Source: a virus
Virus record (IMG/VR): IMGVR_UViG_3300044796_000261
Location: 1-59,962 of that record
DNA: 59,962 bases
Direction: 5' to 3' (one strand)
This document shows, piece after piece, positions 1 to 59,962 of this stretch. The notes below the pieces were generated by a model. It did not search any database, had not been told where the DNA came from, and worked only from the letters and a program-made list of their open reading frames with translations. The stretch's first letter is position 1. Every line of letters begins with the position of its first letter. The translations under genes and the position numbers were made by a program.

Positions 1-258
1 GTCGAGGCATCCAAGGCTCCTCGCAGCCATTGCGACTCCAAGTGCGTCGATTGTCTCGCTCTGCACATGCCGCGTCGAGGCATCCAAGGCTCCTCGCAGC
101 CATTGCGACATGAGGCCGGCCGGTTCGCGACGGCCGTGGGGGCATCGTGTCGAGGCATCCAAGGCTCCTCGCAGCCATTGCGACCCATCGCCCACGCCAT
201 CGACGCCGCCCGCGTCGAGGTAGTCGAGGCATCCAAGGCTCCTCGCAGCCATTGCGAC
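1..258 (-). CRISPR. CRISPR array, part after the circular junction
   Basis: Identical 36-bp repeats lie at 1-36, 74-109, 149-184 and 223-258, separated by spacers of 37, 39 and 38 bp (37-73, 110-148, 185-222). Together with the part at 59691-59962 the circle has six repeats and five spacers. The repeat ends are complementary (GTCG at one end, CGAC at the other). Read on the minus strand, a CGAGG/CCTCG stem sits near the repeat 3' end, next to the spacer, as in several type V crRNAs. The first repeat is only 19 bp past the stop of the Cas12-like gene, so I infer co-transcription leftward. All repeats are identical, with no decayed terminal repeat. Spacer targets are unknown to me. Confidence 0.97.
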
Positions 259-277
259 GTGTCTCGCACGACCCGAA

Positions 278-1981
278 TCATTCCGCCACCTTGGCGGCCG
301 ATTCGCGAGCGGAGGCTATTTCCTCGCTCTTCGCTCGCTTCTTTTCCTTTCTCCGCTCCCAGGCGTTGCCTCTCAAAGTACCGCTTCCACTGACGTTTTC
401 CTCCGTGCGAGCGCCCCCGCCGATCCACGCGTCGATCGCGCGCTCGCACCACGACCGCTCCTCGCTCTCGCTGAGCCGCGCCGCCGGAATCCACGGGTGC
501 TCGATCGCGTCCGCACCGAAGACGAGCCTCAGCGCGCCCCGAAGCTCGCTCGGCCCCGCCACAAATCGCACGTCGCTCTCCTCGCCGAAGCGCGCCTCGC
601 GCGACAGATCGCGATCCTCGAGGATCACGGTCCGGTACCGCCTCCCCCACTCGGCCGCCAGCACGCGGTATTGTTCGCGTCGGCGTCGGAGAGCCTGACC
701 TCGTGAGCCGTCTGCGTACTGCCAGAGGTGCCGGTCGCGGTGGACCCACTCGGCGAGCATCGCCAGCGCCTTCGGGCAGCACGTCGCGTGCTTCGCAGAC
801 CACGACTCGTACAGCCGGTGGAATCGATCGAGCGAGAGCCAGAGGTGCATCGTGGCCTTCGCCTTCGCGAGCTCGGGCGGGAGGGGCCCGGTCATCGCGC
901 GCGCGAGCTTCGGGGCCATGTCGTTTCGGATCAGGTCGCGCACGGCGCGAATGTCCGCCGACTTGCAGATCCCCTTGATTTCGCGCTCTGAGAGCATCAC
1001 CTCGCCGGTGCGGCCCTCGTGGTCGCGCCATGTGCCGACGCGGATCGTGCCGGCGACCGGAGTCCACTCGACCTCGAGCGCAACGGCCCCCTCGAGCGAG
1101 CGGTCGAGACTGCGAGCGGCCGGAGCCGGATCGTCCACCGTGATCTCGCACGACCACACCGCATGGGTCGCCTCGCGTCGGCACGAGACTCGTACCCACT
1201 TCCACCGTGCCGCGTCGGGGACCTGGCGGTGCATGCGCACCGGGAACTTCGCCCACACGGGGTCTCGGCCCTCGGATCCCACGCGCAGCCAGAGCACGCG
1301 CCAGGGGTGGCCGGTTTGCTTCCGATCGGCGAATCGGTCGGGCGCGAGCCGCACGCGCGGGTCCGTGCCCGCGAGCACATCGCGGGTCGCCAGTCCCCCC
1401 TGGATCTGGATCCCGATCTGCCCGACGTAGACGCCGGAGCCGATGCGCGTCTCCTCCGCCCGCACGAATTTCGGGTCACTCGGCTCGAGACCCCCCCCCT
1501 CGTAGAGGGGCATCCTGCGGACCTGATCGGACGAGGCCTCGATCGTGAGGTAGGACCCCCAAAACGTCTCGGTCAGGTGGCGCGCGTCGCCGCGGATCGA
1601 CTTGTCGAGCAGCGCGATCCTCCCCGTCTCGTAGAGCGGCGAGTAGGCGTAGCGGAGCTGACGACGGCGCCCGTCGCCCTCGTTCCACTCGACCGGAGCC
1701 TCCCAGTGGCCGCCCGCGCACCGCGCGGCGTCGAGCGTCTCTCGGCGGATCTTGCTGAGCGCAGTCAGCGCGGCTTTCCGCGTTGACTTCGTGGCCGCCT
1801 TGAGCGACGCCTCGGCGTCGCGCACCTCGGGTGTGTCGAGGATCGCGCGCAGTGCGTGGCGACGTCCCCGCTCGACCGCAACGAGGTCGTTGCGGTAGTC
1901 GTGCGCGGCGCGAACCTGAGCGCGCTGGACGGACTCGCCCTCGACCGGGCCCTTGCAGCCGAATTGGTAGACGCGGATCAT
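278..1981 (-). CDS. Compact Cas12-like CRISPR effector, predicted nuclease-dead
   Basis: A 567-aa protein encoded next to the CRISPR array. It starts at an ATG preceded by GAGGAG. The N-terminal 90 residues are rich in basic helices, followed by a mixed region (about 100-290). A RuvC-I-like strand reads ALEVEW (301-306), where the catalytic Asp of active Cas12/TnpB is not present. A basic helical stretch contains HRDRHLW (414-420) and RRRREQYR. A RuvC-II-like strand reads VILEDRDL, with Glu455 kept. After it there is no CxxC...CxxC Zn ribbon and no DxNAA-type RuvC-III; the chain ends in a Lys/Arg-rich tail (about 540-567). From memory this arrangement resembles the Cas12m/Cas12c branch, whose members bind DNA without cutting it. 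I infer crRNA-guided DNA binding and silencing. No adaptation genes are nearby. Assignment to Cas12 rests on motifs and array adjacency. Confidence 0.82.
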   Translation of the reverse strand: MIRVYQFGCKGPVEGESVQRAQVRAAHDYRNDLVAVERGRRHALRAILDTPEVRDAEASLKAATKSTRKAALTALSKIRRETLDAARCAGGHWEAPVEWNEGDGRRRQLRYAYSPLYETGRIALLDKSIRGDARHLTETFWGSYLTIEASSDQVRRMPLYEGGGLEPSDPKFVRAEETRIGSGVYVGQIGIQIQGGLATRDVLAGTDPRVRLAPDRFADRKQTGHPWRVLWLRVGSEGRDPVWAKFPVRMHRQVPDAARWKWVRVSCRREATHAVWSCEITVDDPAPAARSLDRSLEGAVALEVEWTPVAGTIRVGTWRDHEGRTGEVMLSEREIKGICKSADIRAVRDLIRNDMAPKLARAMTGPLPPELAKAKATMHLWLSLDRFHRLYESWSAKHATCCPKALAMLAEWVHRDRHLWQYADGSRGQALRRRREQYRVLAAEWGRRYRTVILEDRDLSREARFGEESDVRFVAGPSELRGALRLVFGADAIEHPWIPAARLSESEERSWCERAIDAWIGGGARTEENVSGSGTLRGNAWERRKEKKRAKSEEIASARESAAKVAE

Positions 1982-1993
1982 GATCTCCTCGCT

Positions 1994-2905
1994 TCACACC
2001 CGCTCCCGCGCCCAAGCCACCGTCCGCCGAATCCCCTCCGCAAGCGACATCTGCGGCGACCAGCCGAGCAGCTTCCGCCCGAGGTCCCCGTTGATGGTCT
2101 TGTGGGCCGCGCCATCGGGCTTGCTTGCGTCATACCGTAGCTGCCCATGAAACCCGACCTCTCGCGCGATGGTCTCGGCGAGCTCCCGCACGCTGATGCC
2201 GCGCTCAACGCCCACGTTCACGATGCCATCGTGCGAAGGGCAGTCGACCGCGCGAATCATCGCCTCCGCGGCATCGTCCGCGTACAGCCACTCGCGAACC
2301 GGGGTTCCGGTGCCCCACACGGTCATGTACTCCGAGCCAGAAGCCTTGGCCTGCAGCGTCTTGACCACGAGCGCGCCGAGCGCGTGCGAGCGCACGGGGT
2401 CAAGGTGGTCATCGATGCCGTAGCAGTTCGGTAGCACCAGCGAGATCGTATCCAAGCCGTGCTGCTTCTTGTGCGCCCACGCGCCGACGACCGCAGCCTT
2501 GCGCGTGAATCCAGTCACGAGCACGCTCTCGTGCATCGGTCCGTTCCAGAACTCGTCCTCGCGGAACACGCTGGCCGCGCCCGGGTATGCGCAGTTTGCG
2601 ATGGGCTGCACGACGCGCTTGACGGCCGTGCGGCTCGCCATGTCCAGCACGTTCATCGTCATCGCGAGGTTGTCGCGAAAGATGCGAACCGGATCGTCGA
2701 AGTTCATCTGAATTCCGCCGCCAAACTGCGCGCAGTGGATGACCGCGCTCGGATGATGCCTAACGAACAACTCGCGTGTCTGCTCGGGGTCGCGAAGGTC
2801 CACGCCGGTCGACTTCGATGCGCCGACGTAGCGGACGCCGCGCACGTCGAGGAGCTTGCAGACTCGGGAGCCAAGGAATCCGGTGTGGCCGGTGACTAGG
2901 ATCAT
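1994..2905 (-). CDS. NAD-dependent epimerase/dehydratase, GDP-L-fucose synthase-like
   Basis: A 303-aa short-chain dehydrogenase/reductase-fold protein. The N-terminal Rossmann motif is TGHTGFLG, and its gene lies directly after GDP-mannose dehydratase with an ATGA overlap. GDP-fucose synthases epimerise and reduce GDP-4-keto-6-deoxymannose to GDP-L-fucose. The C-terminal substrate-domain motifs ([27 protein letters not shown]) fit that family. Oddly, the usual catalytic YxxxK is not visible: the aligned stretch reads [13 protein letters not shown], so Tyr and Lys appear replaced by Thr and Arg. The enzyme may therefore be altered or dead. The Cas12-like gene follows 12 bp downstream in the same transcript. 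Confidence 0.85.
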
Positions 2906-3882
2906 CGCATGTCCCTCACGGCCTTCTCTTGCCTGGCCAGCATCATGTCCGAGTCGATCATCATACGCACGAGGTCACGGAACGCCACCGAGGGCAGCCA
3001 ACCCAACGCTTCCCTCGCAAGCGACGAGCCTCCTTCCAGGCAGTCAATCTCGGTGGGCCTACGATAGGTTGCGTCCTCCGTGACGTACGTTCGCCAGTTG
3101 AGGCCGAGTTGACCGAATGCCTCGTTCAGTACGTCCCGCACCGAAAAGCTAACGCCGGTCGCGATCACGAAGTCCCCTGGCTCGTCTCGCTGGACCATCC
3201 GCCACATAGCCTCGACGTAGTCGCCTGCAAAGCCCCAGTCCCTTCGCGCTTCGAGGTTCCCGAGCGCAAGCGAAGACTGCAAGCCGAGCGCTATGCGCGT
3301 CGCAGCACGCGTGATCTTGCGCGTCACGAACGTCTCACCGCGGCGAGGCGACTCGTGATTGAACAGGATGCCGCAAGAAATATGCATCCCGTACGCCTCG
3401 CGATAGTTGACCGCGTGCATGTGGGCGGATAGCTTCGCGACCGCGTACGGGCTTCGCGGTCGAAACGGCGTAGCTTCGCTCTGCGGTGCGGGCGACGATC
3501 CGAACATCTCTGAGCTCGAAGCCTGGTAGAACCGTATCGGTGCCTGCATGTCGCGCACCGCATCGAGAAGCCGCAGCGTACCCATCGCGTTCACGTCGGC
3601 CGTGTACTCAGGCTGGTCGAAGCTCACGCGCACATGGCTCTGCGCGGCTAGGTTGTAGACCTCAGCTGGCTGCACGCGCTCAAGGACACGACGCAAGCCC
3701 GTGCCATCCGTCATGTCGCCGAAGTGCAGATGCAGGCGCTGGCGGACGTGTTCGATGCGGCCCGTTGTGAACGAGCTTCCGCGGCGAAGCATGCCGTGAA
3801 CCTCGTAGCCATTCGCCAGCAGAAGGTCGGCCAGGTATGAGCCATCCTGACCAGTGATCCCGGTGATGAGCGCGACCGTCAC
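2902..3882 (-). CDS. gmd: GDP-mannose 4,6-dehydratase
   Basis: A 326-aa SDR enzyme converting GDP-mannose to GDP-4-keto-6-deoxymannose, the branch point for GDP-fucose, GDP-rhamnose and GDP-perosamine. [16 protein letters not shown] at the N terminus is the family's NADP-binding signature, and SPYAVAK supplies the catalytic YxxxK. I place the start at the GTG at 3882, which overlaps the stop of the upstream fucosyltransferase as GTGA and has GGAGGTG just upstream; the open frame extends further but without support. The length is slightly short of bacterial Gmd (about 345-370 aa). Confidence 0.93.
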
Positions 3883-4559
3883 GTCGGCACCTCCCCCCGG
3901 TCCAGCGCCCTCAGGATGCGAATCGTCCCGCTGAACGTCCCGAAGCCCTGACCCATCCAGTCGACAGCCCCGCGACACATCCACATGTCGACGATGGCGT
4001 CCTCGATGCGGCCGTAGACCTTGTGCTCGTTCAGGCCGTGAAGCTCCTTGCCATCGAGCACGCAGCCGGAACGGAAGCGGTCACCGAGCCAAGACTGATA
4101 ACGCCGCTGGGTCTCCCCGTTGTCGCAGGCTACCCACACGGGTCCGTGCCTCGCTGCGCACCATCGCAGATACTCCTCGTCCGTCTCGTGGTGCGCACCG
4201 ATCATCGCCGCGAGCGGAGTCATGTCCGTCCGCCGAACGTGGATGGCCAGGTACCCTCCGTCGAGATACAGCGTTTCGCGGAACGTTGCCACGCGCTGCA
4301 CGATGCTCGATACAGGCCTCATCTCCGCGTACGCCTTTCGCCAGTCGGCAGGCGCGCCCGCAGCGATGCCGTAGTCCTGGTGAAATCCTGGCGAGTGGTC
4401 GTCCACGAACTCCACGCCGTCGAGCGGCTCGAAAGTCTTGAGGAAGTGCGGGACGTCGGGGGTCCAGTGGACGCGGAGGGAGCCGTGGGCGGACTTGTAT
4501 GACAACAAGGCCTGTACCCTGTTGAACGATCCGCCTACTGGTCGTAGGCAAAACGTCAC
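3879..4559 (-). CDS. Fucosyltransferase-like glycosyltransferase
   Basis: A 226-aa protein with [11 protein letters not shown] in its middle, the HxRRxD donor-binding motif shared by alpha-1,2/1,6-fucosyltransferases (GT11/GT23/NodZ). A C-terminal [15 protein letters not shown] segment also fits the GDP-fucose-binding half. It sits directly upstream of gmd and the fucose-synthase-like gene, overlapping gmd by 4 bases. The three genes form a logical make-and-transfer cassette. It starts at GTG 4559 with GGAGAAAA upstream. It is shorter than typical GT11 enzymes (about 290 aa). The acceptor is unknown; it could be host LPS or a virion protein. Confidence 0.72.
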
Positions 4560-13335: not shown

Positions 13336-14667
13336 ATGAACATCAAGATCAGGTCGTGGCGAGACGGCAGGGTGCTTTGGCACGGCGAGGCCGAGTCGCT
13401 TAGGGACGCATTGAGTAATGCTGTTTTGGCGGGCGCGAACCTGACGGACGCGAACCTGGCGCGCGCGAACCTGGCGCGCGCGGACCTGGCGCGCGCGGAC
13501 CTGGCGGACGCGTACTTGGCGGGCGCGGACTTGGCGCGCGCGAACCTGGCGGGCGCGGACTTGGCGCGCGCGTACCTGGCGGACGCGAACCTGGCGGGCG
13601 CGAACCTGGCGGGCGCGAACCTGGCGCGCGCGAACCTGACGGACGCGAACCTGGCGGACGCGAACCTGGCGGGCGCGGACTTGGCGCGCGCGAACCTGGC
13701 GCGCGCGAACCTGACGGACGCGAACCTGGCGGGCGCGTACCTGGCGCGCGCGTACCTGGCGGACGCGGACTTGGCGGGCGCGGACTTGGCGGACGCGGAC
13801 TTGGCGCGCGCGAACCTGGCGCGCGCGAACCTGACGGACGCGAACCTGACGGACGCGGACTTGGCGGACGCGAACCTGACGGACGCGTACCTGGCGGACG
13901 CGGACTTGGCGGACGCGAACCTGGCGCGCGCGGACCTGGCGGACGCGTACTTGGCGGGCGCGAACCTGGCGCGCGCGGACCTGGCGGACGCGTACTTGGC
14001 GGACGCGAACCTGGCGCGCGCGGACCTGGCGGACGCGTACTTGGCGGGCGCGAACCTGGCGCGCGCGGACCTGGCGGACGCGTACTTGGCGGACGCGGAC
14101 TTGGCGGACGCGAACCTGGCGGGCGCGGACTTGGCGGACGCGGACTTGGCGGACGCGAACCTGGCGGGCGCGAACCTGACGGGCGCGAACCTGGCGCGCG
14201 CGTACCTGGCGGACGCGCGCAACGTTCCCTCCGCCGCGATGGGCGCTCCGGCGAAGACGTCCGAGCCGCGGCCGCCGCGAGACGACGCGGCGGCACGCGC
14301 GGCATGGACAGCGCACCGCAAGATGAGCACGGCGGAGCGCGCCGATGCGTACCGCGCTCGACATCCAAATGTACCCGTCGTCCCGCATCTCGACGCGAAG
14401 ATTCTCAGCCTCGTTGACACCGGCGAAGGCAAGCTCGACATGTCATCGGTCCACCTGTGCGAGACAACGCATTGCCGTGCCGGGTTCGCGGTGCACCTGG
14501 CCGGCGCGGCTGGGTACGCGCTAGAGAAGGAGCGAGGCTGGCGGGCAGCGGGCCGCGCGATCTACCTCGCCAGCACGGGGCGATACCCGCACTTCTTCGC
14601 GACCGACGAGCGGGCGCTCGAAGACATGCGGCGGTGCGCAGCCGAGGACGCGAAGGTGTCCGTATGA
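13336..14667 (+). CDS. Pentapeptide-repeat protein with C-terminal phage domain
   Basis: A 443-aa protein. Residues about 31-295 are some 53 consecutive A(D/N/Y)LxxA-type pentapeptides, predicting a right-handed quadrilateral beta-helix roughly 13 turns long. Proteins such as Qnr and MfpA use this fold to mimic DNA and protect gyrase. The last 145 residues are unique sequence with CETTHCRAGFAVHLAG, a module I recall after pentapeptide repeats in other phages. At the DNA level the repeats are almost exact 15-mers, implying recent expansion. The ATG has GGAGG upstream. It ends in an ATGA overlap with the next gene. DNA mimicry is an inference. Confidence 0.9.
   Translation: MNIKIRSWRDGRVLWHGEAESLRDALSNAVLAGANLTDANLARANLARADLARADLADAYLAGADLARANLAGADLARAYLADANLAGANLAGANLARANLTDANLADANLAGADLARANLARANLTDANLAGAYLARAYLADADLAGADLADADLARANLARANLTDANLTDADLADANLTDAYLADADLADANLARADLADAYLAGANLARADLADAYLADANLARADLADAYLAGANLARADLADAYLADADLADANLAGADLADADLADANLAGANLTGANLARAYLADARNVPSAAMGAPAKTSEPRPPRDDAAARAAWTAHRKMSTAERADAYRARHPNVPVVPHLDAKILSLVDTGEGKLDMSSVHLCETTHCRAGFAVHLAGAAGYALEKERGWRAAGRAIYLASTGRYPHFFATDERALEDMRRCAAEDAKVSV
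13427..14220 (+). repeat. Tandem 15-bp minisatellite inside the pentapeptide gene
   Basis: Nearly 800 bp consist of about 53 tandem 15-mers of the form CTGGCGGGCGCGAAC. The variation is limited to a few positions that switch Asn/Asp/Tyr and Gly/Arg/Asp. Larger blocks recur (for example near 13921-14090), suggesting unequal exchange. Copy number may vary between isolates and be mis-assembled. Confidence 0.95.
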
Positions 14668-15123: not shown

Positions 15124-15402
15124 ATGAACAGCGCAGAACAGATTGTGCGGTTGGCGGTGGACGCGGCGGGTCAGGCGGCCGGGCGCGACGTTCGTCACGT
15201 GCGAAGGGATTCCTTCGTGAACATCCAAGCTCGGGCCGCCATCGCCTTGGCCCTCCTCGACCTCACGCTCTTTCCGAAGCCGTGGGAGCGCGACGACGCC
15301 GAGGAGCAGTACCGCGAGGCGTGCGAGGGTCCCGAGGTCGACCCGTACCGCGATCCTACCGTTTCGGAGCTTCGGTTCCAGCCGGAGAGGGAGTGGCCGT
15401 AA
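15124..15402 (+). CDS. Hypothetical 92-aa protein
   Basis: Begins MNSAEQIVRLAVDAAGQAAG, with AAGG about ten bases upstream. An alternative GTG start at 15076, coupled to the previous stop, would add 16 residues. The C-terminal half is acidic (ERDDAEEQYREACEGPEVDP). No family was recognised. The TnpB element begins immediately after its TAA. Confidence 0.65.
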   Translation: MNSAEQIVRLAVDAAGQAAGRDVRHVRRDSFVNIQARAAIALALLDLTLFPKPWERDDAEEQYREACEGPEVDPYRDPTVSELRFQPEREWP

Positions 15403-16620
15403 TCAACCCCGCCCTAAAGGGCGGAGCTTTGCAGATCAAGTCCATGGCTCACAACCACTTCAACCCTGTCCGCGTACGGCCGGATTACTTCGGCCCGGCG
15501 AGCTATTACCCTCGCCGCGTTGACGTCGGCATCCGCGGTGTGGCCGCACGAGAGGCACGCGAAGAGGTCGCGAGTCTTCCGGTTGGCCTTCTCGGCGTGG
15601 CCGCAGACGCGACACTCCCGGGAGGTGTTTCGCGGGTCGACGTGGCAGACTGGCAGTCCAGCACGGGCGGCTTTGTAGGCGATCTTCGTCTGAAGGTCAC
15701 CGAAGGCCCACGAGTGCAGGACGCGTCGCTGCGACCGGGAAGCTCTTATCCGCGAGCGGATGCCGTCGAGGTTCTCGAGGGCGATGCCGCGCGAGGTGCG
15801 TTCGGCTGTAGCCACGATCTGCTTAGAAATGCAGTGATTCACATGCGTGGAGAAACGACCCTCCTTGAGCCGTCTTTTGTGAAGCAGTCGCTTCGCGCTC
15901 TTAGTGCCCTTGGACTGGAGTCGTTGTCGAAGCTTGACGGCGCGACGTCGGAGAGCGTTGAGACTCGAGCCGCTGAAGTTGTCACCGTCACTTGTCGTAG
16001 CGATATTGACGATGCCGACGTCTACGCCGAGCCAGCCGAGAACCTTCTTCTCCTCGATATCGGGTACGTCGACAGAGACGAAGAGGTAGAACTTGGAGCC
16101 GCGGAGCACGAGGTCCGCCTCGCCTCGCTCGAAACCGAGAAGCGCACGCTGATGCTCGCCGCAGACGAATGGGATCGCTTGGCGCCCAGAGAGCGTCCAG
16201 AGGTTCGCAGCATCGCCCTTCCACGACAGGATACGCTGATCGTACGCGATCGACCCGAGCGGGCGAAAACGGCGCCTCACCTTCTTGTCGAGTTTGTAGG
16301 CGTCGGCAACCTTGGCGGTTGCACGCACGATCATTTGCGAGGACAGGTCAGGGAACGCAGCGCGAGCGTCACGGTAGACCAGCTTGTGCAGCGCGAATTG
16401 CCGGAAGATCTTGGCATCCCAGGCCTTGCCAGAAAGCCAGTCGCACGCCGCATTCGCGCGCCGCATCGTCGCGGTGAGCGATGCCGCTTGCTCGGCGGTC
16501 GGCTGCAACTTCACCTGCACGACAAGCTTCACCATGGTGACGTAGCACGCTCAAGACTTGAGGCAACACAACCAAGACGGGGCTTCCTCCCCGCCCTGAA
16601 GGACGGGGTTTCCGCCCCGG
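15403..16620 (-). mobile_element. Solitary TnpB element (IS200/IS605, IS1341-type)
   Basis: The tnpB gene is bracketed by GC hairpins of the type found at IS605-family ends. A perfect CCGCCC-TAAA-GGGCGG stem lies at 15409-15424, just past the 3' end of tnpB, and a CCCCG...CGGGG stem at 16589-16608 lies upstream of its start. No tnpA is present, so movement would need one in trans. The end at 15403-15430 is where the guide (omega) RNA scaffold would end. Exact ends are uncertain by a few bases. Confidence 0.75.
15414..16535 (-). CDS. tnpB: TnpB RNA-guided nuclease, apparently intact
   Basis: A 373-aa OrfB/TnpB protein, the family ancestral to Cas12. All catalytic parts are visible: RuvC-I LGVDVGIVNIAT (Asp172), RuvC-II IALENLDGI (Glu254), a Zn ribbon CRVCG...CLSCG (Cys308/311/327/330) and RuvC-III ADADVNAA (Asp337). 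TnpB proteins are guided by a transposon-end RNA and cut target DNA, which helps keep the element. It is opposite in direction to the surrounding accessory genes. It contrasts with the catalytically degenerate Cas12-like protein elsewhere in this genome. Confidence 0.95.
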   Translation of the reverse strand: MVKLVVQVKLQPTAEQAASLTATMRRANAACDWLSGKAWDAKIFRQFALHKLVYRDARAAFPDLSSQMIVRATAKVADAYKLDKKVRRRFRPLGSIAYDQRILSWKGDAANLWTLSGRQAIPFVCGEHQRALLGFERGEADLVLRGSKFYLFVSVDVPDIEEKKVLGWLGVDVGIVNIATTSDGDNFSGSSLNALRRRAVKLRQRLQSKGTKSAKRLLHKRRLKEGRFSTHVNHCISKQIVATAERTSRGIALENLDGIRSRIRASRSQRRVLHSWAFGDLQTKIAYKAARAGLPVCHVDPRNTSRECRVCGHAEKANRKTRDLFACLSCGHTADADVNAARVIARRAEVIRPYADRVEVVVSHGLDLQSSAL

Positions 16621-54830: not shown

Positions 54831-55664
54831 TCAACCTTTTAGCGCCGCGGTCGCGCAATTCGCCACGCACTCGCCGCAGATTCCGGCCCCTGTCGACGCG
54901 CTCGTGAACTTCACGGGGTTCGCCTGGCACCACCAGCAACGGCGCGGCGGCACGGGGTTCTGCGAGTAGTCCCGCTCCGCTTCGAGCGTCAGAAGGTTCT
55001 GCCTGGACATCCACTGATTTTCAACGAACGGCATTGGAGCCCGCGGCGTCGCGTCTTTAGGAACCGGATACGATCGCCAGTCGGCCGTCGCAACCCGCAA
55101 CGTGTGATTGTCGTAGCCGAGGGTGGACGGAATCTCCGTGTCGTGCTGCACGAGCGCGGGCAAGCTATGCACGATCGCGCGCCTACGTCCCCAGCTCCAC
55201 ATTTGCGCGTATCCGTCCTCGTTCCACTGGTCGCGCAGTCGCTTCGGAATCGTCGGGACGAAATCCACGAGCTGCGCAGCCACCCCGCGCGGCAGCACGT
55301 ACCCAGGGCCCGAAAGCCAGAAGGTTCGCAGGTACGGCACTCCCGCCTCCGCCAGCGACTTCGCCACCGGGAGCTGGCAGTGCAGCGAGATGATCTCGTC
55401 GGGCAGCGCGTCCGTCATGCGGTCAACGGCATCTACGAGTTCGGGCGACACGCTCACGTCGTCGTTGAGCAGGATGGCCGGCGCGTCCTGCTTCGCGGCC
55501 CACTGCCATAGGCGAACAGCCCACTGCTGCGCGTGTTCCTTCTCCGTGCTGACCTGGACGTGCGGCTTGACTCCCTGCGGCTCGAGTTCGCGCAAGAGGC
55601 GCATCAGGCCGTCGGCGCGACCTTCGGCCCACGCGGCGTGAGCGATGCCGACGATGGGCCTCAT
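54831..55664 (-). CDS. Glycosyltransferase-like protein with C-terminal Zn ribbon
   Basis: A 277-aa protein with a GT-A-like pattern including AILLNDDVSVSPELVDAV (DDD-like metal site) and RTFWLSGPGYVLPR. The last 30 residues add CWWCQANPVKF...CGECVANC, a Zn ribbon. Likely transfers a sugar in the surface-glycan pathway. Confidence 0.7.
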   Translation of the reverse strand: MRPIVGIAHAAWAEGRADGLMRLLRELEPQGVKPHVQVSTEKEHAQQWAVRLWQWAAKQDAPAILLNDDVSVSPELVDAVDRMTDALPDEIISLHCQLPVAKSLAEAGVPYLRTFWLSGPGYVLPRGVAAQLVDFVPTIPKRLRDQWNEDGYAQMWSWGRRRAIVHSLPALVQHDTEIPSTLGYDNHTLRVATADWRSYPVPKDATPRAPMPFVENQWMSRQNLLTLEAERDYSQNPVPPRRCWWCQANPVKFTSASTGAGICGECVANCATAALKG

Positions 55665-56263
55665 TGTCCGTGCCTTGCAGGACCACCGGGCGGCGGCGGC
55701 AGCAAACTCCACTGCCTCACTATCCACACGCTCGACCAATCCCCAGGACCCATCTCCGGGTCCCCGAGCTTGGCGCGCACCGCAGCCTGCACACCAGGGT
55801 ACGCGTCCTGGTAGTCGTGGCCGCAGAGCCATCCACCTGGCTTGACCATTGTGCGCCAGTGATCGATGTCGGCGCGCACGTTCGCCTCGTCGTGTGCGGC
55901 GTCGATGAATACGACGTCAGCGCACGGAACCGTAACGTCGCAGCTAGCGGCGCGCACCACGTGCAGCCGGTCCAGCACGTCCGGCGCATGTTCGCCCATC
56001 AGGCCGAGAAACGCGCGCCACGTTGTCGGGTACTTCGCAGCCACGGCCTCGAACGGAGCGCCGGGAGAATCGAGCACCGTTTCCGCCCACGTGTCGACCG
56101 CCCAAAGTTCGAGGTCCGGACGCATCGATCCGATCGCCGCAATGCTGCCTCCGAACAGCACGCCTACCTCGACGAACCTCGCGCCCTGCGGAAGATCCTC
56201 GGCCAACTTGCGGTAGAACGGAATGATGTCGGAATTCCACCCCGGTATCGCTTCCCAGCTCAT
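55661..56263 (-). CDS. Class I SAM methyltransferase (Methyltransf_24-like)
   Basis: A 200-aa protein with RFVEVGVLFGGSIAAIGSMR (motif I), LWAVDTW (motif II) and DVVFIDAAHDEANVRADIDH, the group's hallmark. It resembles sugar- and macrocin-type O-methyltransferases. A second homologous gene lies nearby at 56911. Confidence 0.82.
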   Translation of the reverse strand: MSWEAIPGWNSDIIPFYRKLAEDLPQGARFVEVGVLFGGSIAAIGSMRPDLELWAVDTWAETVLDSPGAPFEAVAAKYPTTWRAFLGLMGEHAPDVLDRLHVVRAASCDVTVPCADVVFIDAAHDEANVRADIDHWRTMVKPGGWLCGHDYQDAYPGVQAAVRAKLGDPEMGPGDWSSVWIVRQWSLLPPPPGGPARHGQ

Positions 56264-56907
56264 AGGCTCTCCAGTCTGTCGTAAGGCGCGAAGCTGCGCA
56301 CATGCTCCACGATGGTCTGCTCGTGCATCCGCTCCACCTTCGCGGCCGTACGCTCCCAGCTCACGTCGGCGGAGTAGACGTAGAGCACGTCGGGAATAAA
56401 TCGGCAGCGGTCCGGGCCAGACATTTCCAGGCAGGGCAGCATAAAGGCCGGGTCATCGCCCCTGTCGATCCACTCGCCTCGGTAGCGAAGGTGCTCGGGC
56501 TTGATTCGTTGGAAGAGCCCAGCGCGCATCGTCTTCAGGTGAGTCGCAAGCCACGGCTGCCGGCGGTACTCCGGCGTCGGGTACGGCGCGGCGAACCCTG
56601 GCGTTCCGTCGATCTGAACGAAGCTACCCCACGTCACCCACGCGCCGGCCTCGTGCTCGTCCAGCACACGACGGAGCGCGCCGCGGTGCGCGAGATGATC
56701 GTCACCATCGACGAACGCGACAACGTCGAGCGGGTCGAGCTTTGCGATGACGCGCGCGAGGTTCTCGAGCTTCGTGCACGGAGCCTCTTGCTCGCTGGCC
56801 TCCACATAATGATGTATTACCTCGACGCCTTGCTGCGACGCGACGGACGCTCGGCACACCGATGCGTGCGGGGAACGCCAGCCGGTTGAGACGACGTGGA
56901 TGCGCAT
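56260..56907 (-). CDS. Glycosyltransferase family 2-like protein
   Basis: A 215-aa GT-A protein; N-terminal MRIHVVSTGWRSPHASVCRA and VVAFVDGDDHLA (DxD) bind the nucleotide-sugar. GEWIDRGDDPAFMLPCLEMS resembles the acceptor-binding region. Part of the glycan block. Confidence 0.82.
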   Translation of the reverse strand: MRIHVVSTGWRSPHASVCRASVASQQGVEVIHHYVEASEQEAPCTKLENLARVIAKLDPLDVVAFVDGDDHLAHRGALRRVLDEHEAGAWVTWGSFVQIDGTPGFAAPYPTPEYRRQPWLATHLKTMRAGLFQRIKPEHLRYRGEWIDRGDDPAFMLPCLEMSGPDRCRFIPDVLYVYSADVSWERTAAKVERMHEQTIVEHVRSFAPYDRLESL

Positions 56908-56910
56908 GGC

Positions 56911-57540
56911 CTACGCCCGAACGATCCACATGACGCTCGAGCACCCAGGCTCCCACCCCTCGCGGTCGACGGGCCACGGTGCAAACTTCGCCGCTGGCAG
57001 AAGCTCGGAGACAGCCTGGTAGACAGGCCCTCGCCATCCGCAGTCGTGGAACCCGATGATGCCGCCCGTCTTGCACACGCGAAGCGAAGCCTGAATGTCC
57101 GCGATGACGCCTTCCTTCTTGTGGTCTCCGTCGACCAAAATAAGGTCCACGGATTCGTCATCCAACTCGAGCATCCCCTCCGCGCTCGGCTTGCGGATGG
57201 CCAGCACGCGCTCGCGCACGTCTGGCGCATGCTCGTCCAGCATCCCGCACCAGGCTTCGTACATGCCGCCGAAGCGGTCCCGCAGTTCGCGGTACGGCCC
57301 GACGGGCAAGCGCTCGCCCGCGTCGTCCCACTCGTTCGTCCACGGGTCGATTGCGATGAGAGACAGGTCAGGCCTCGTGACGCCAACGAACGAAATCGAC
57401 CGGCCGAAGAACGAGCCAATCTCGAGGTACGTTCCTCCTTGCTGCGTGCGAGGCAGCGCGACGTCTGCCAGCCACGGCAGGATGTCGGTGCTCCCGCCTG
57501 GGTGGGCGGAGTGCCAGGCCACTGACTCCTCGGGGCTCAT
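56911..57540 (-). CDS. Class I SAM methyltransferase (Methyltransf_24-like)
   Basis: A 209-aa protein with TYLEIGSFFGRSISFVGVTR (motif I), LIAIDPW (motif II) and VDLILVDGDHKKEGVIADIQ. It is paralogous in pattern to the gene at 55661. The ATG shares TGATG with the previous stop. Confidence 0.82.
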   Translation of the reverse strand: MSPEESVAWHSAHPGGSTDILPWLADVALPRTQQGGTYLEIGSFFGRSISFVGVTRPDLSLIAIDPWTNEWDDAGERLPVGPYRELRDRFGGMYEAWCGMLDEHAPDVRERVLAIRKPSAEGMLELDDESVDLILVDGDHKKEGVIADIQASLRVCKTGGIIGFHDCGWRGPVYQAVSELLPAAKFAPWPVDREGWEPGCSSVMWIVRA

Positions 57541-57665
57541 CAGTACCACCCCGATTCAGCAACGTTCTCGATGGCGCTGCACGTCGCGATGATCTTGTCC
57601 AGCATGGCCACAAGCTCCAGTGATACATCGTCAGCTCGTTTCGCGTTCTTCTTCTTTGCCGCCAT
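57540..57665 (-). CDS. 41-aa hypothetical micro-protein
   Basis: [20 protein letters not shown] with a basic head and helical tail. The stop shares TGATG with the next gene, and the ATG is coupled to the acetyltransferase gene. Double coupling supports it. Confidence 0.58.
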   Translation of the reverse strand: MAAKKKNAKRADDVSLELVAMLDKIIATCSAIENVAESGWY

Positions 57666-58300
57666 CACCCACCTCCAAACTCGTACCCCAACCTCTTCGC
57701 AGCCTCGAGAATCTTCTCCCGAGGCCTCTCGCGCACCACGCGCGCCGGCACTCCTGCCACGACGGTCCACGGCGGCACGTCGCGAGTGACAACCGCGCCC
57801 GCGCCGACGAGCGCACCCATACCAATGCGAACGCCAGGCAGCAGCGTGCACCCAGTCGTCACGATGGCCAGGGGCTCGAGCACCACCGCGGCGGCCCGCA
57901 CCGTGGCGTGCGCCTCGTCCGGGATGGTCGGGCCCGTAAGCCCGTTGTATCCGGAGTCGTCAGCGCACACGACGCGGCTCCCCGCGCCGAGCGTCGAGAA
58001 GTGGCCCATTTGCAGCGTACCTCTCGCGCCGCCGATGACCGTCACGTACGGCGCCACGTGGCAAAAGTCCCCGATGTCCGCCGCGGTCGTGATGAGCGTC
58101 CCGTGGTCGATGTTCGTGCTCTTGCCGATGCGCACGAGGTTCGGTCGACGGATGATGGCGCTTGGGGCGACGTATGAGTCCGCTCCGACGTTGAGCGGGT
58201 TCGCGCGGCCAACGTCACGCTCGGTCGGGCGCTCTTGCGGCGCCTTCTGGCACTCCCATCCGAGCCTGCACTCGGGGTCTCCGCAGTGGGGGCAGATCAT
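57665..58300 (-). CDS. Left-handed beta-helix acyltransferase (NeuD/PerB-like)
   Basis: A 211-aa protein. After an N-terminal Zn-ribbon-like [15 protein letters not shown], hexapeptide repeats ([40 protein letters not shown]) form the LbH acetyltransferase fold. With a DegT-type aminotransferase next door and gmd elsewhere, N-acetylation of a 4-amino sugar is plausible. Confidence 0.82.
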
Positions 58301-58311
58301 CCGAGCTCACC

Positions 58312-59412
58312 TCACGCGTAAAACGCCAGCACCTCGTCGCAAACCCTGTCCACTTCCTCATCGGTCAACTGCACCGACGAGGGCAGCCACAACCCGTCGC
58401 GTCCCACACGCTCTGCCACCGGGAAGCTGCCGCCATCGCCACCATAGCACTTTTGGTGCGCAATAGGTGGGTACATCGGCCGGGACCCGATGCCGCGCGC
58501 TTCGAGGTGCGCCCGCAGCCCGTCCCGGTTCCACGCCAGAACGTCGTAGAACCATGGCGTCGACTCCTGATGGTACATGGCCACTTGCGAGATGCCGGCG
58601 AGGCCCGCACGGTACCGCGCCCCGATGGCCTTCTTTCGGGCCACGCGCTCCGGTAGCTTCTTCATCTGCTCGAGCCCGACGACGGCTTGCAGGTCGGTGA
58701 ACTTCATGTTCACGCCGAACGTCGGATGTATGTCCACGCCTCCGCGCTCGCGGCCGAAGTCCTTGGCCCGCCGCATCAGGTGTGCAAGGTCGTCGTCGTC
58801 CGTGATGCACGCGCCACCCTGGCCCATGCTGATGACCTTCGGCGCGGAGAATGAGAACGACCCCACGGCCCCCACGCGACCGCAGTGCCGGCCGTCCGGT
58901 GCGAGCGCGCCTAGCGCCTGCGCCGCGTCCTCGATGATGGGAATTCGATGGTGCGCACACATCTCGCGTAGCATCGGCATCGTGCGCGGTGTCCTCCCGT
59001 TCGCGTCCACGAGCACCACGGCTCGCGTCCGGTGCGACAGCGCGCGCTCCACTAGCTCCGCGTCGATGCAGAGCGTATCCGGCTCCACGTCCACGAACGA
59101 GAGCTGCATACCGAGGAGCTTGAACGCGTTCGCGCTGGCGACCATCGAATAGCAAGGAACGATGACCTCGGCGTTCCGGGGAAGGCCAAGGGCAATGGCT
59201 GCCAGCGTGAGACTCAGCGTCCCGTTCGGGGCCATCACGCAGTGCCGCGCGCCGGTGTACGCCGCGATGGCGCCCTCGAGTTCGCGCGTCTTCGTGTGCT
59301 CGGTGAGGTAGCCTCCGGACACCACGTAGGAGGCGACCGCTGCGGCCTCCTCCTCGCCGAAGAGGGGGGCGTGCTGGGGGATCACTGCTCCCTCACCGAA
59401 CGGAGGTGTCAT
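58312..59412 (-). CDS. DegT/DnrJ/EryC1/StrS-family aminotransferase (RfbE-like)
   Basis: A 366-aa PLP enzyme: GTLSLTLAAIALGLPRNAEV, VDVEPDTLCID, IPIIEDAAQALGA and FSFSAPKVISMGQGGA, in which the Lys would hold PLP. NMKFTDLQAVVGLEQMKKLP is also diagnostic. The enzyme may convert GDP-4-keto-6-deoxymannose (product of Gmd) to GDP-perosamine. The start is at ATG 59412, coupled (ATGA) to the small upstream gene. Confidence 0.88.
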   Translation of the reverse strand: MTPPFGEGAVIPQHAPLFGEEEAAAVASYVVSGGYLTEHTKTRELEGAIAAYTGARHCVMAPNGTLSLTLAAIALGLPRNAEVIVPCYSMVASANAFKLLGMQLSFVDVEPDTLCIDAELVERALSHRTRAVVLVDANGRTPRTMPMLREMCAHHRIPIIEDAAQALGALAPDGRHCGRVGAVGSFSFSAPKVISMGQGGACITDDDDLAHLMRRAKDFGRERGGVDIHPTFGVNMKFTDLQAVVGLEQMKKLPERVARKKAIGARYRAGLAGISQVAMYHQESTPWFYDVLAWNRDGLRAHLEARGIGSRPMYPPIAHQKCYGGDGGSFPVAERVGRDGLWLPSSVQLTDEEVDRVCDEVLAFYA

Positions 59413-59690: not shown

Positions 59691-59962
59691 GTCGAGGCAT
59701 CCAAGGCTCCTCGCAGCCATTGCGACACACGGTCGCCTTGAAAAAGCAGCCGTCCGGCGTCGTAGTCGAGGCATCCAAGGCTCCTCGCAGCCATTGCGAC
59801 GTAGCGGTGATGGCGCCGCTAGTTGCTGTCGCCGAGTCGAGGCATCCAAGGCTCCTCGCAGCCATTGCGACTCCAAGTGCGTCGATTGTCTCGCTCTGCA
59901 CATGCCGCGTCGAGGCATCCAAGGCTCCTCGCAGCCATTGCGACATGAGGCCGGCCGGTTCG
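59691..59962 (-). CRISPR. CRISPR array, part before the circular junction
   Basis: The same 36-bp repeat occurs at 59691-59726, 59765-59800, 59836-59871 and 59909-59944. Spacers are at 59727-59764 (38 bp) and 59801-59835 (35 bp). The last two repeats are the same physical copies as those at 1-36 and 74-109, seen twice because of the terminal overlap. The array stops 72 bp before the start of the small gene at 59618. That 72-bp gap shows no convincing promoter or AT-rich leader, so the leader is either within the cas gene side or absent. Confidence 0.97.
59836..59962. repeat. 127-bp terminal redundancy (assembly circle closure)
   Basis: Bases 59836-59962 are identical to 1-127. An overlap of exactly 127 bp equals a common assembler k-mer, so it is best read as an assembly artefact showing a circular (or circularly permuted) molecule of 59,835 bp, not as a true direct terminal repeat. 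The overlap falls inside the CRISPR array. Confidence 0.9.

Follow-up and report, generated by a model that had tools for sequence, protein, structure and literature searches.

The window analysed here is the whole of a viral record of 59,962 nt (IMGVR_UViG_3300044796_000261), whose two ends are identical: positions 1-127 match positions 59836-59962 exactly, over 127 nt. Such an overlap resembles the k-mer overlap left by circular assembly, in which case the genome would measure about 59,835 bp (~59.8 kb) and the CRISPR array that spans both ends would be unbroken across the junction. In this array (59691-59835 and 1-258), a 36-nt repeat occurs six times without variation and separates five spacers, 35-39 nt long. 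The end of a gene for a 567-residue protein, cas12m, lies 20 bp from the last repeat. The features of the locus are as follows.

1..127, no strand: end overlap of 127 bp, copy 1 (circular assembly)
59836..59962, no strand: end overlap of 127 bp, copy 2 (circular assembly)
59691..59726, minus: CRISPR repeat, distal to cas12m
59727..59764, minus: spacer 1, 38 nt, without convincing target
59765..59800, minus: CRISPR repeat
59801..59835, minus: spacer 2, 35 nt, target search negative
1..36 (equal to 59836-59871 via the end overlap), minus: CRISPR repeat
37..73, minus: spacer 3, 37 nt, matched at 36/37 beside a 5'-TTG PAM by two IMG/VR records
74..109 (equal to 59909-59944 via the end overlap), minus: CRISPR repeat
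110..148, minus: spacer 4, 39 nt, target search negative
149..184, minus: CRISPR repeat
185..222, minus: spacer 5, 38 nt, matched only weakly by numerous coding sequences of Myxococcota
223..258, minus: CRISPR repeat adjoining cas12m
278..1981, minus: cas12m, 567 aa, type V-M (V-U1) effector (profile, structure and coding-bias evidence)

When recomputed, all the repeat and spacer coordinates of an earlier note on this DNA proved right, and the full identity of the six repeats was borne out. Because the second-best match to the repeat in the genome has 14 mismatches, the array is far beyond chance. Moreover, since the end overlap takes in spacer 3 entirely and spacer 4 by half, closure is supported by more than the repeat. 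Judging from the letters of the assembly, a chimera seems an unlikely source of the array. The earlier note had described an array standing alone and had missed the gene 20 bp away.

The product of this gene matched no Pfam family above the cut-off. With the PADLOC profiles, it was recognized by Cas12u1 (E 5.7e-55) and by a model labelled Cas12f (E 2.7e-48). It also matches a solved Cas12m (PDB 23vw) at E 1.1e-31 and is about 29-33% identical to MsCas12m, encoded on a plasmid of Allomeiothermus silvanus. An AlphaFold (AF2) model of moderate confidence (mean pLDDT 69, pTM 0.40) was compared with known structures using Foldseek. The first four ranks were Cas12m chains (8hhl, 8hio, 8hhm and 8pm4; E 3.9e-22 to 7e-20), and Cas12f came next at 5e-7. 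Taken together, the profile, 23vw and Foldseek matches identify 278-1981 as a divergent cas12m and the locus as type V-M (formerly V-U1). The length of the protein, 567 aa, lies inside the range of the small V-M effectors (about 500-620 aa).

On the coding strand of cas12m, the repeat reads GTCGCAATGGCTGCGAGGAGCCTTGGATGCCTCGAC; in it, the stems GGCU/AGCC and CGAGG/CCUCG interleave to form a pseudoknot. Eight other V-M repeats were aligned with it, namely those of Ms, Methylomonas koyamae, virus Rctr197k, the viral contig L006 (two repeats), L007, L008 and the virus targeted by spacer 3. Over the aligned repeats, 90.1% of the cells of the pseudoknot are paired and 8 of the 9 pairs have changed on both sides. 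The covariation score was 0.741, versus 0.220 for the shuffles, and sliding the structure gave no more than 0.182; the aligned repeats being related, the shuffle count is no probability, and it is the slid control that preserves relatedness. Stem II pairs in all the aligned repeats, and stem I is unformed in the repeat of the target virus. Outside the array, the longest word shared with the repeat measures 11 nt, as for shuffled repeats. Thus, no anti-repeat was found above chance in a word search that leaves room for short imperfect ones, and there is no sign of a tracrRNA. A search of Rfam gave no match.

Profiles for Cas1, Cas2 and Cas4 found no match in the whole genome and did find matches in control genomes, which confirms the earlier observation that cas1, cas2 and cas4 are absent. 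This absence is expected rather than anomalous, since V-U/V-M systems normally lack them: genes for spacer acquisition are missing from typical V-U1 to V-U5 systems (PMC11013384). It would also suit an orphan mini-array borrowing the Cas proteins of the host, as archaeal viruses use such mini-arrays (PMC11656645). Nevertheless, the effector that a host-dependent mini-array would lack is present here, 20 bp away and in matching orientation. The repeat also has the V-M pseudoknot, and its exact sequence was absent from the other viral contigs searched. Dependence on host Cas proteins is therefore very improbable.

The effector itself has diverged at its catalytic centre and at its C-terminus, at the following positions.

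1073..1075, minus: codon 303, site of the RuvC-I catalytic Asp, occupied by Glu in ALEVEW (alignment)
617..619, minus: codon 455, RuvC-II Glu kept, in VILED (alignment)
281..493, minus: C-terminal 71 residues, at the expected location of the TNB zinc finger and RuvC-III (alignment, AF2)

At RuvC-I, the phage protein has ALEVEW where MsCas12m has AVDLGW, so that Asp is replaced by Glu. Protein alignment reveals no recognizable RuvC-III or zinc finger in the C-terminus. Only one of the four zinc-ligand cysteines aligns (C512) and three were not found, the last 70 residues being placed differently in the two alignments; a Glu at the RuvC-III position is possible. Residues 497-542 are modelled by AF2 with a confidence below 50. 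A basic C-terminal tail like that of the Myxococcota relatives is retained. The idea that a frameshift had removed the C-terminus was rejected, as the other two frames contain no zinc-finger motif over 201-700. In each of the other genuine Cas12m proteins compared, three or all four of the zinc positions are conserved (a spurious frame, L019, was dropped from the zinc and RuvC comparison). The sole exception is the Cas12m of L006 (IMGVR_UViG_2889752395_000001), which stops before the zinc finger, has Arg at RuvC-I and is followed by nine V-M repeats. The phylogenetic tree places L006 with proteins of mycobacterial plasmids and the phage Cas12m with Myxococcota, and thus the two C-terminal losses look independent.

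These losses raise the possibility that the locus is a decaying remnant, in which cas12m, having lost its C-terminal domain, is becoming a pseudogene beside a passive array. The missing TNB zinc finger and RuvC-III, the long branch of the protein and the poorly predicted segment 497-542 are consistent with this idea, and the losses could be harmful to target binding. However, the frame is open over all 567 codons, with a third-position GC of 0.80 to 0.94 throughout, to its end. Moreover, the six repeats have stayed identical, spacer 3 still matches a virus at 36 of 37 positions, and L006 shows the same loss beside a nine-repeat array. Decay thus seems unlikely.

Whether their site is DED, HDD or NDD, the Cas12m proteins tested were found to bind dsDNA and not to cut it (PMC11013384); MmCas12m2 silences transcription (PMC10442227). 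The RuvC triad and the TNB zinc finger, though common in the family, were not used here to define V-M because the triad differs among Cas12m clades (PMC10442227), and the phage protein displays neither in its usual form. Since Cas12m is already non-cutting with DED, HDD or NDD sites, the loss seen here would be a further step along a known road. From its residues, the phage Cas12m appears to be nuclease-dead.

The targets of the array were sought in IMG/VR with exact 17-nt seeds of spacers 1-4. Spacer 3 matches 36 of 37 positions in two records (3300044823_000252 and 3300044904_000188), each of 60,787 bases and identical to each other over the 2,871 bases compared. The protospacer is preceded by GACGCTTG, that is, by a 5'-TTG PAM, and the single mismatch lies at the PAM-distal end. 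At this single protospacer, the PAM fits the TTN of MmCas12m and the 5' T- or C-rich PAMs of V-M systems. In such a collection, whose size is assumed, fewer than about 1e-4 matches are expected by chance, which is negligible. In the same scan, spacers 2 and 4 had no match and spacer 1 had poor matches only, which serves as a control. Comparison of the spacers with annotated phages and plasmids gave nothing convincing. The search proposed in the earlier note has thus yielded a near-perfect external match for spacer 3, the other four spacers being without a convincing target. Because of this match, the array can be said to hold a meaningful memory, which upholds part of the earlier suggestion of maintenance by selection or of acquisition with host proteins; the spacers must have an outside origin, and their gain in trans or by recombination is plausible.

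The protospacer lies in a gene that directly follows one for a DnaB-like helicase and whose 114-aa product has a hydrophobic start and no assigned family. The target virus (60.8 kb) encodes a Cas12m of its own, in which both the DED site and the zinc finger are intact, and carries an array that holds 21 spacers between its 22 repeats. No match beyond chance was found between these 21 spacers and the phage. Otherwise, the two viruses have little in common beyond an exonuclease subunit of DNA polymerase (41%), a helicase, a short stretch within one small gene and the ends of a TnpB element. Within the array of the target virus (L034 3121-4677), two spacers are each present twice, which suggests recombination within that array. 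In addition, the target contig has a 127-bp inverted repeat at its ends (L033 1-127 and the end of L036), equal in length to the end overlap of the phage; this is either an effect of assembly or a true terminal repeat.

The phage itself and the presumed host were also considered as targets. Self-targeting can be set aside, as every spacer has at least 13 mismatches to the rest of the phage genome. The best host match of spacer 5 (33/38) is in an OmpA-like gene of one Myxococcota genome; it has no TTN PAM, carries seed mismatches at positions 1 and 9, and is followed by matches in unrelated genes. Nonetheless, Myxococcota coding DNA yields more matches to spacer 5 than to control 38-mers, with dozens at E <1e-3 versus 6 for the controls and a best E of 2.9e-7 versus 1.3e-4 for random coding 38-mers. 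Together with the degenerate RuvC, this likeness could point to a domesticated RNA-guided regulator, acting as a repressor of genes of the host or the phage and not on rival phages, in the manner of phage TldR, which puts nuclease-dead relatives on host genes (PMC13418256). The absence of any self-match, the defects of the OmpA-like match and the match of spacer 3 to another virus argue against such a regulator, which we hold to be distinctly unlikely.

Several observations bear on the host. The nearest relative of the phage portal is that of Myxococcus phage Mx4, and the nearest chromosomal Cas12m is found in a Polyangiaceae MAG. Matches to Cas12m occur in 4 of 379 Myxococcota genomes, one of them (L019) being probably spurious. 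In the tree, the Cas12m of the phage, that of the target virus and three Myxococcota proteins form one group (support 94/93), with long branches. A Myxococcota host is therefore likely for both phages. As to other phages, Virus Rctr197k (KX853510; L001 5947-9363) encodes a Cas12m, 30% identical and annotated merely as transposase-like, with a long V-M array directly behind the gene.

The V-M locus lies within a sugar-nucleotide cassette (window 54831-59385 and 1994-3984) that encodes a DegT/DnrJ aminotransferase, a hexapeptide transferase, two methyltransferases, a glucosyltransferase-like protein, a GDP-mannose dehydratase and an epimerase, and that perhaps alters surface glycans. Elsewhere in the window are found a 443-aa pentapeptide-repeat protein (13336-14667, plus strand; 15-bp period over about 1 kb) and a GroES-like phage co-chaperonin (52695-53099, minus strand). 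An intact-looking TnpB gene (15414-16535, minus strand), with a Cas12f1-like TNB in Pfam, has flanks (15386-15457 and 16579-16620) that resemble IS200/IS605 ends and are 84-93% alike in the target virus. TnpB was rejected as the effector of the array on account of its distance, 15 kb, and of the V-M type of the repeat.

From these data, it can be proposed, with a probability of roughly 0.78, that the phage carries a cleavage-free V-M (Cas12m) silencing system used against rival phages. The array, downstream of cas12m, would be transcribed, like the gene itself, from the minus strand. A simple scan of 1-3000 for promoters and terminators came up empty, just as it did on shuffles; where the host is not a model organism, this carries little weight. 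The transcript would then be cut within the repeats to give crRNAs with a pseudoknotted handle, each carried by one Cas12m. The complex would bind matching DNA beside a TTN-type PAM and, without cutting, block transcription or replication of the target. The guide from spacer 3 would be aimed at a rival V-M phage, probably of the same Myxococcota host range, so that the main role of the system would be phage competition (superinfection immunity). With one spacer out of five having a target, the data suggest that viruses deploy V-M systems against each other. A broader scenario, in which phage Cas12m proteins shed the zinc finger and RuvC-III at least twice independently to become RNA-guided roadblocks and take part in a two-sided V-M war among Myxococcota phages, is conceivable, if rather doubtful. 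The concrete pair of attacker and target phages makes V-M silencing of phage by phage directly testable. Moreover, a natural Cas12m that lacks the customary TNB zinc finger lets one ask which parts RNA-guided DNA binding needs.

The system resembles the known V-M systems MmCas12m2, GoCas12m and MsCas12m in its near-full-length homology, similar size, 36-nt pseudoknotted repeats, array beside the gene, lack of adaptation genes and TTN-like PAM at one protospacer. It differs from them by Glu in place of the RuvC-I Asp, by its unrecognizable RuvC-III and zinc finger and, where V-M is borne by a plasmid or chromosome, by its location on a phage. In the parts of the sources available, virus-encoded Cas12m is reported 24 times in landfill viruses (PMC12607003) and V-M also occurs in prophages (PMC11656645), again with Cas12m near an array and without adaptation genes; those parts state no target, whereas here one guide has a target that is itself a V-M phage. 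The CRISPR systems of huge phages, with a median of six repeats, no adaptation genes and spacers against other phages (PMC7162821), share with this one the short array, the missing adaptation genes and the phage-directed spacer, but the present phage has a genome of about 60 kb and a V-M effector that is apparently nuclease-dead. Phage TldR (PMC13418256) is likewise phage-borne, RuvC-dead and TnpB-derived, with RNA-guided DNA binding that is predicted in the present case; however, its guide is directed against a host flagellin gene and it has no CRISPR array. Thus, phage-borne V-M and phage arrays aimed at other phages (PMC7162821) are already known. Within the open-licence literature searched, what is new is a doubly degenerate phage Cas12m and a V-M phage aimed at another V-M phage.
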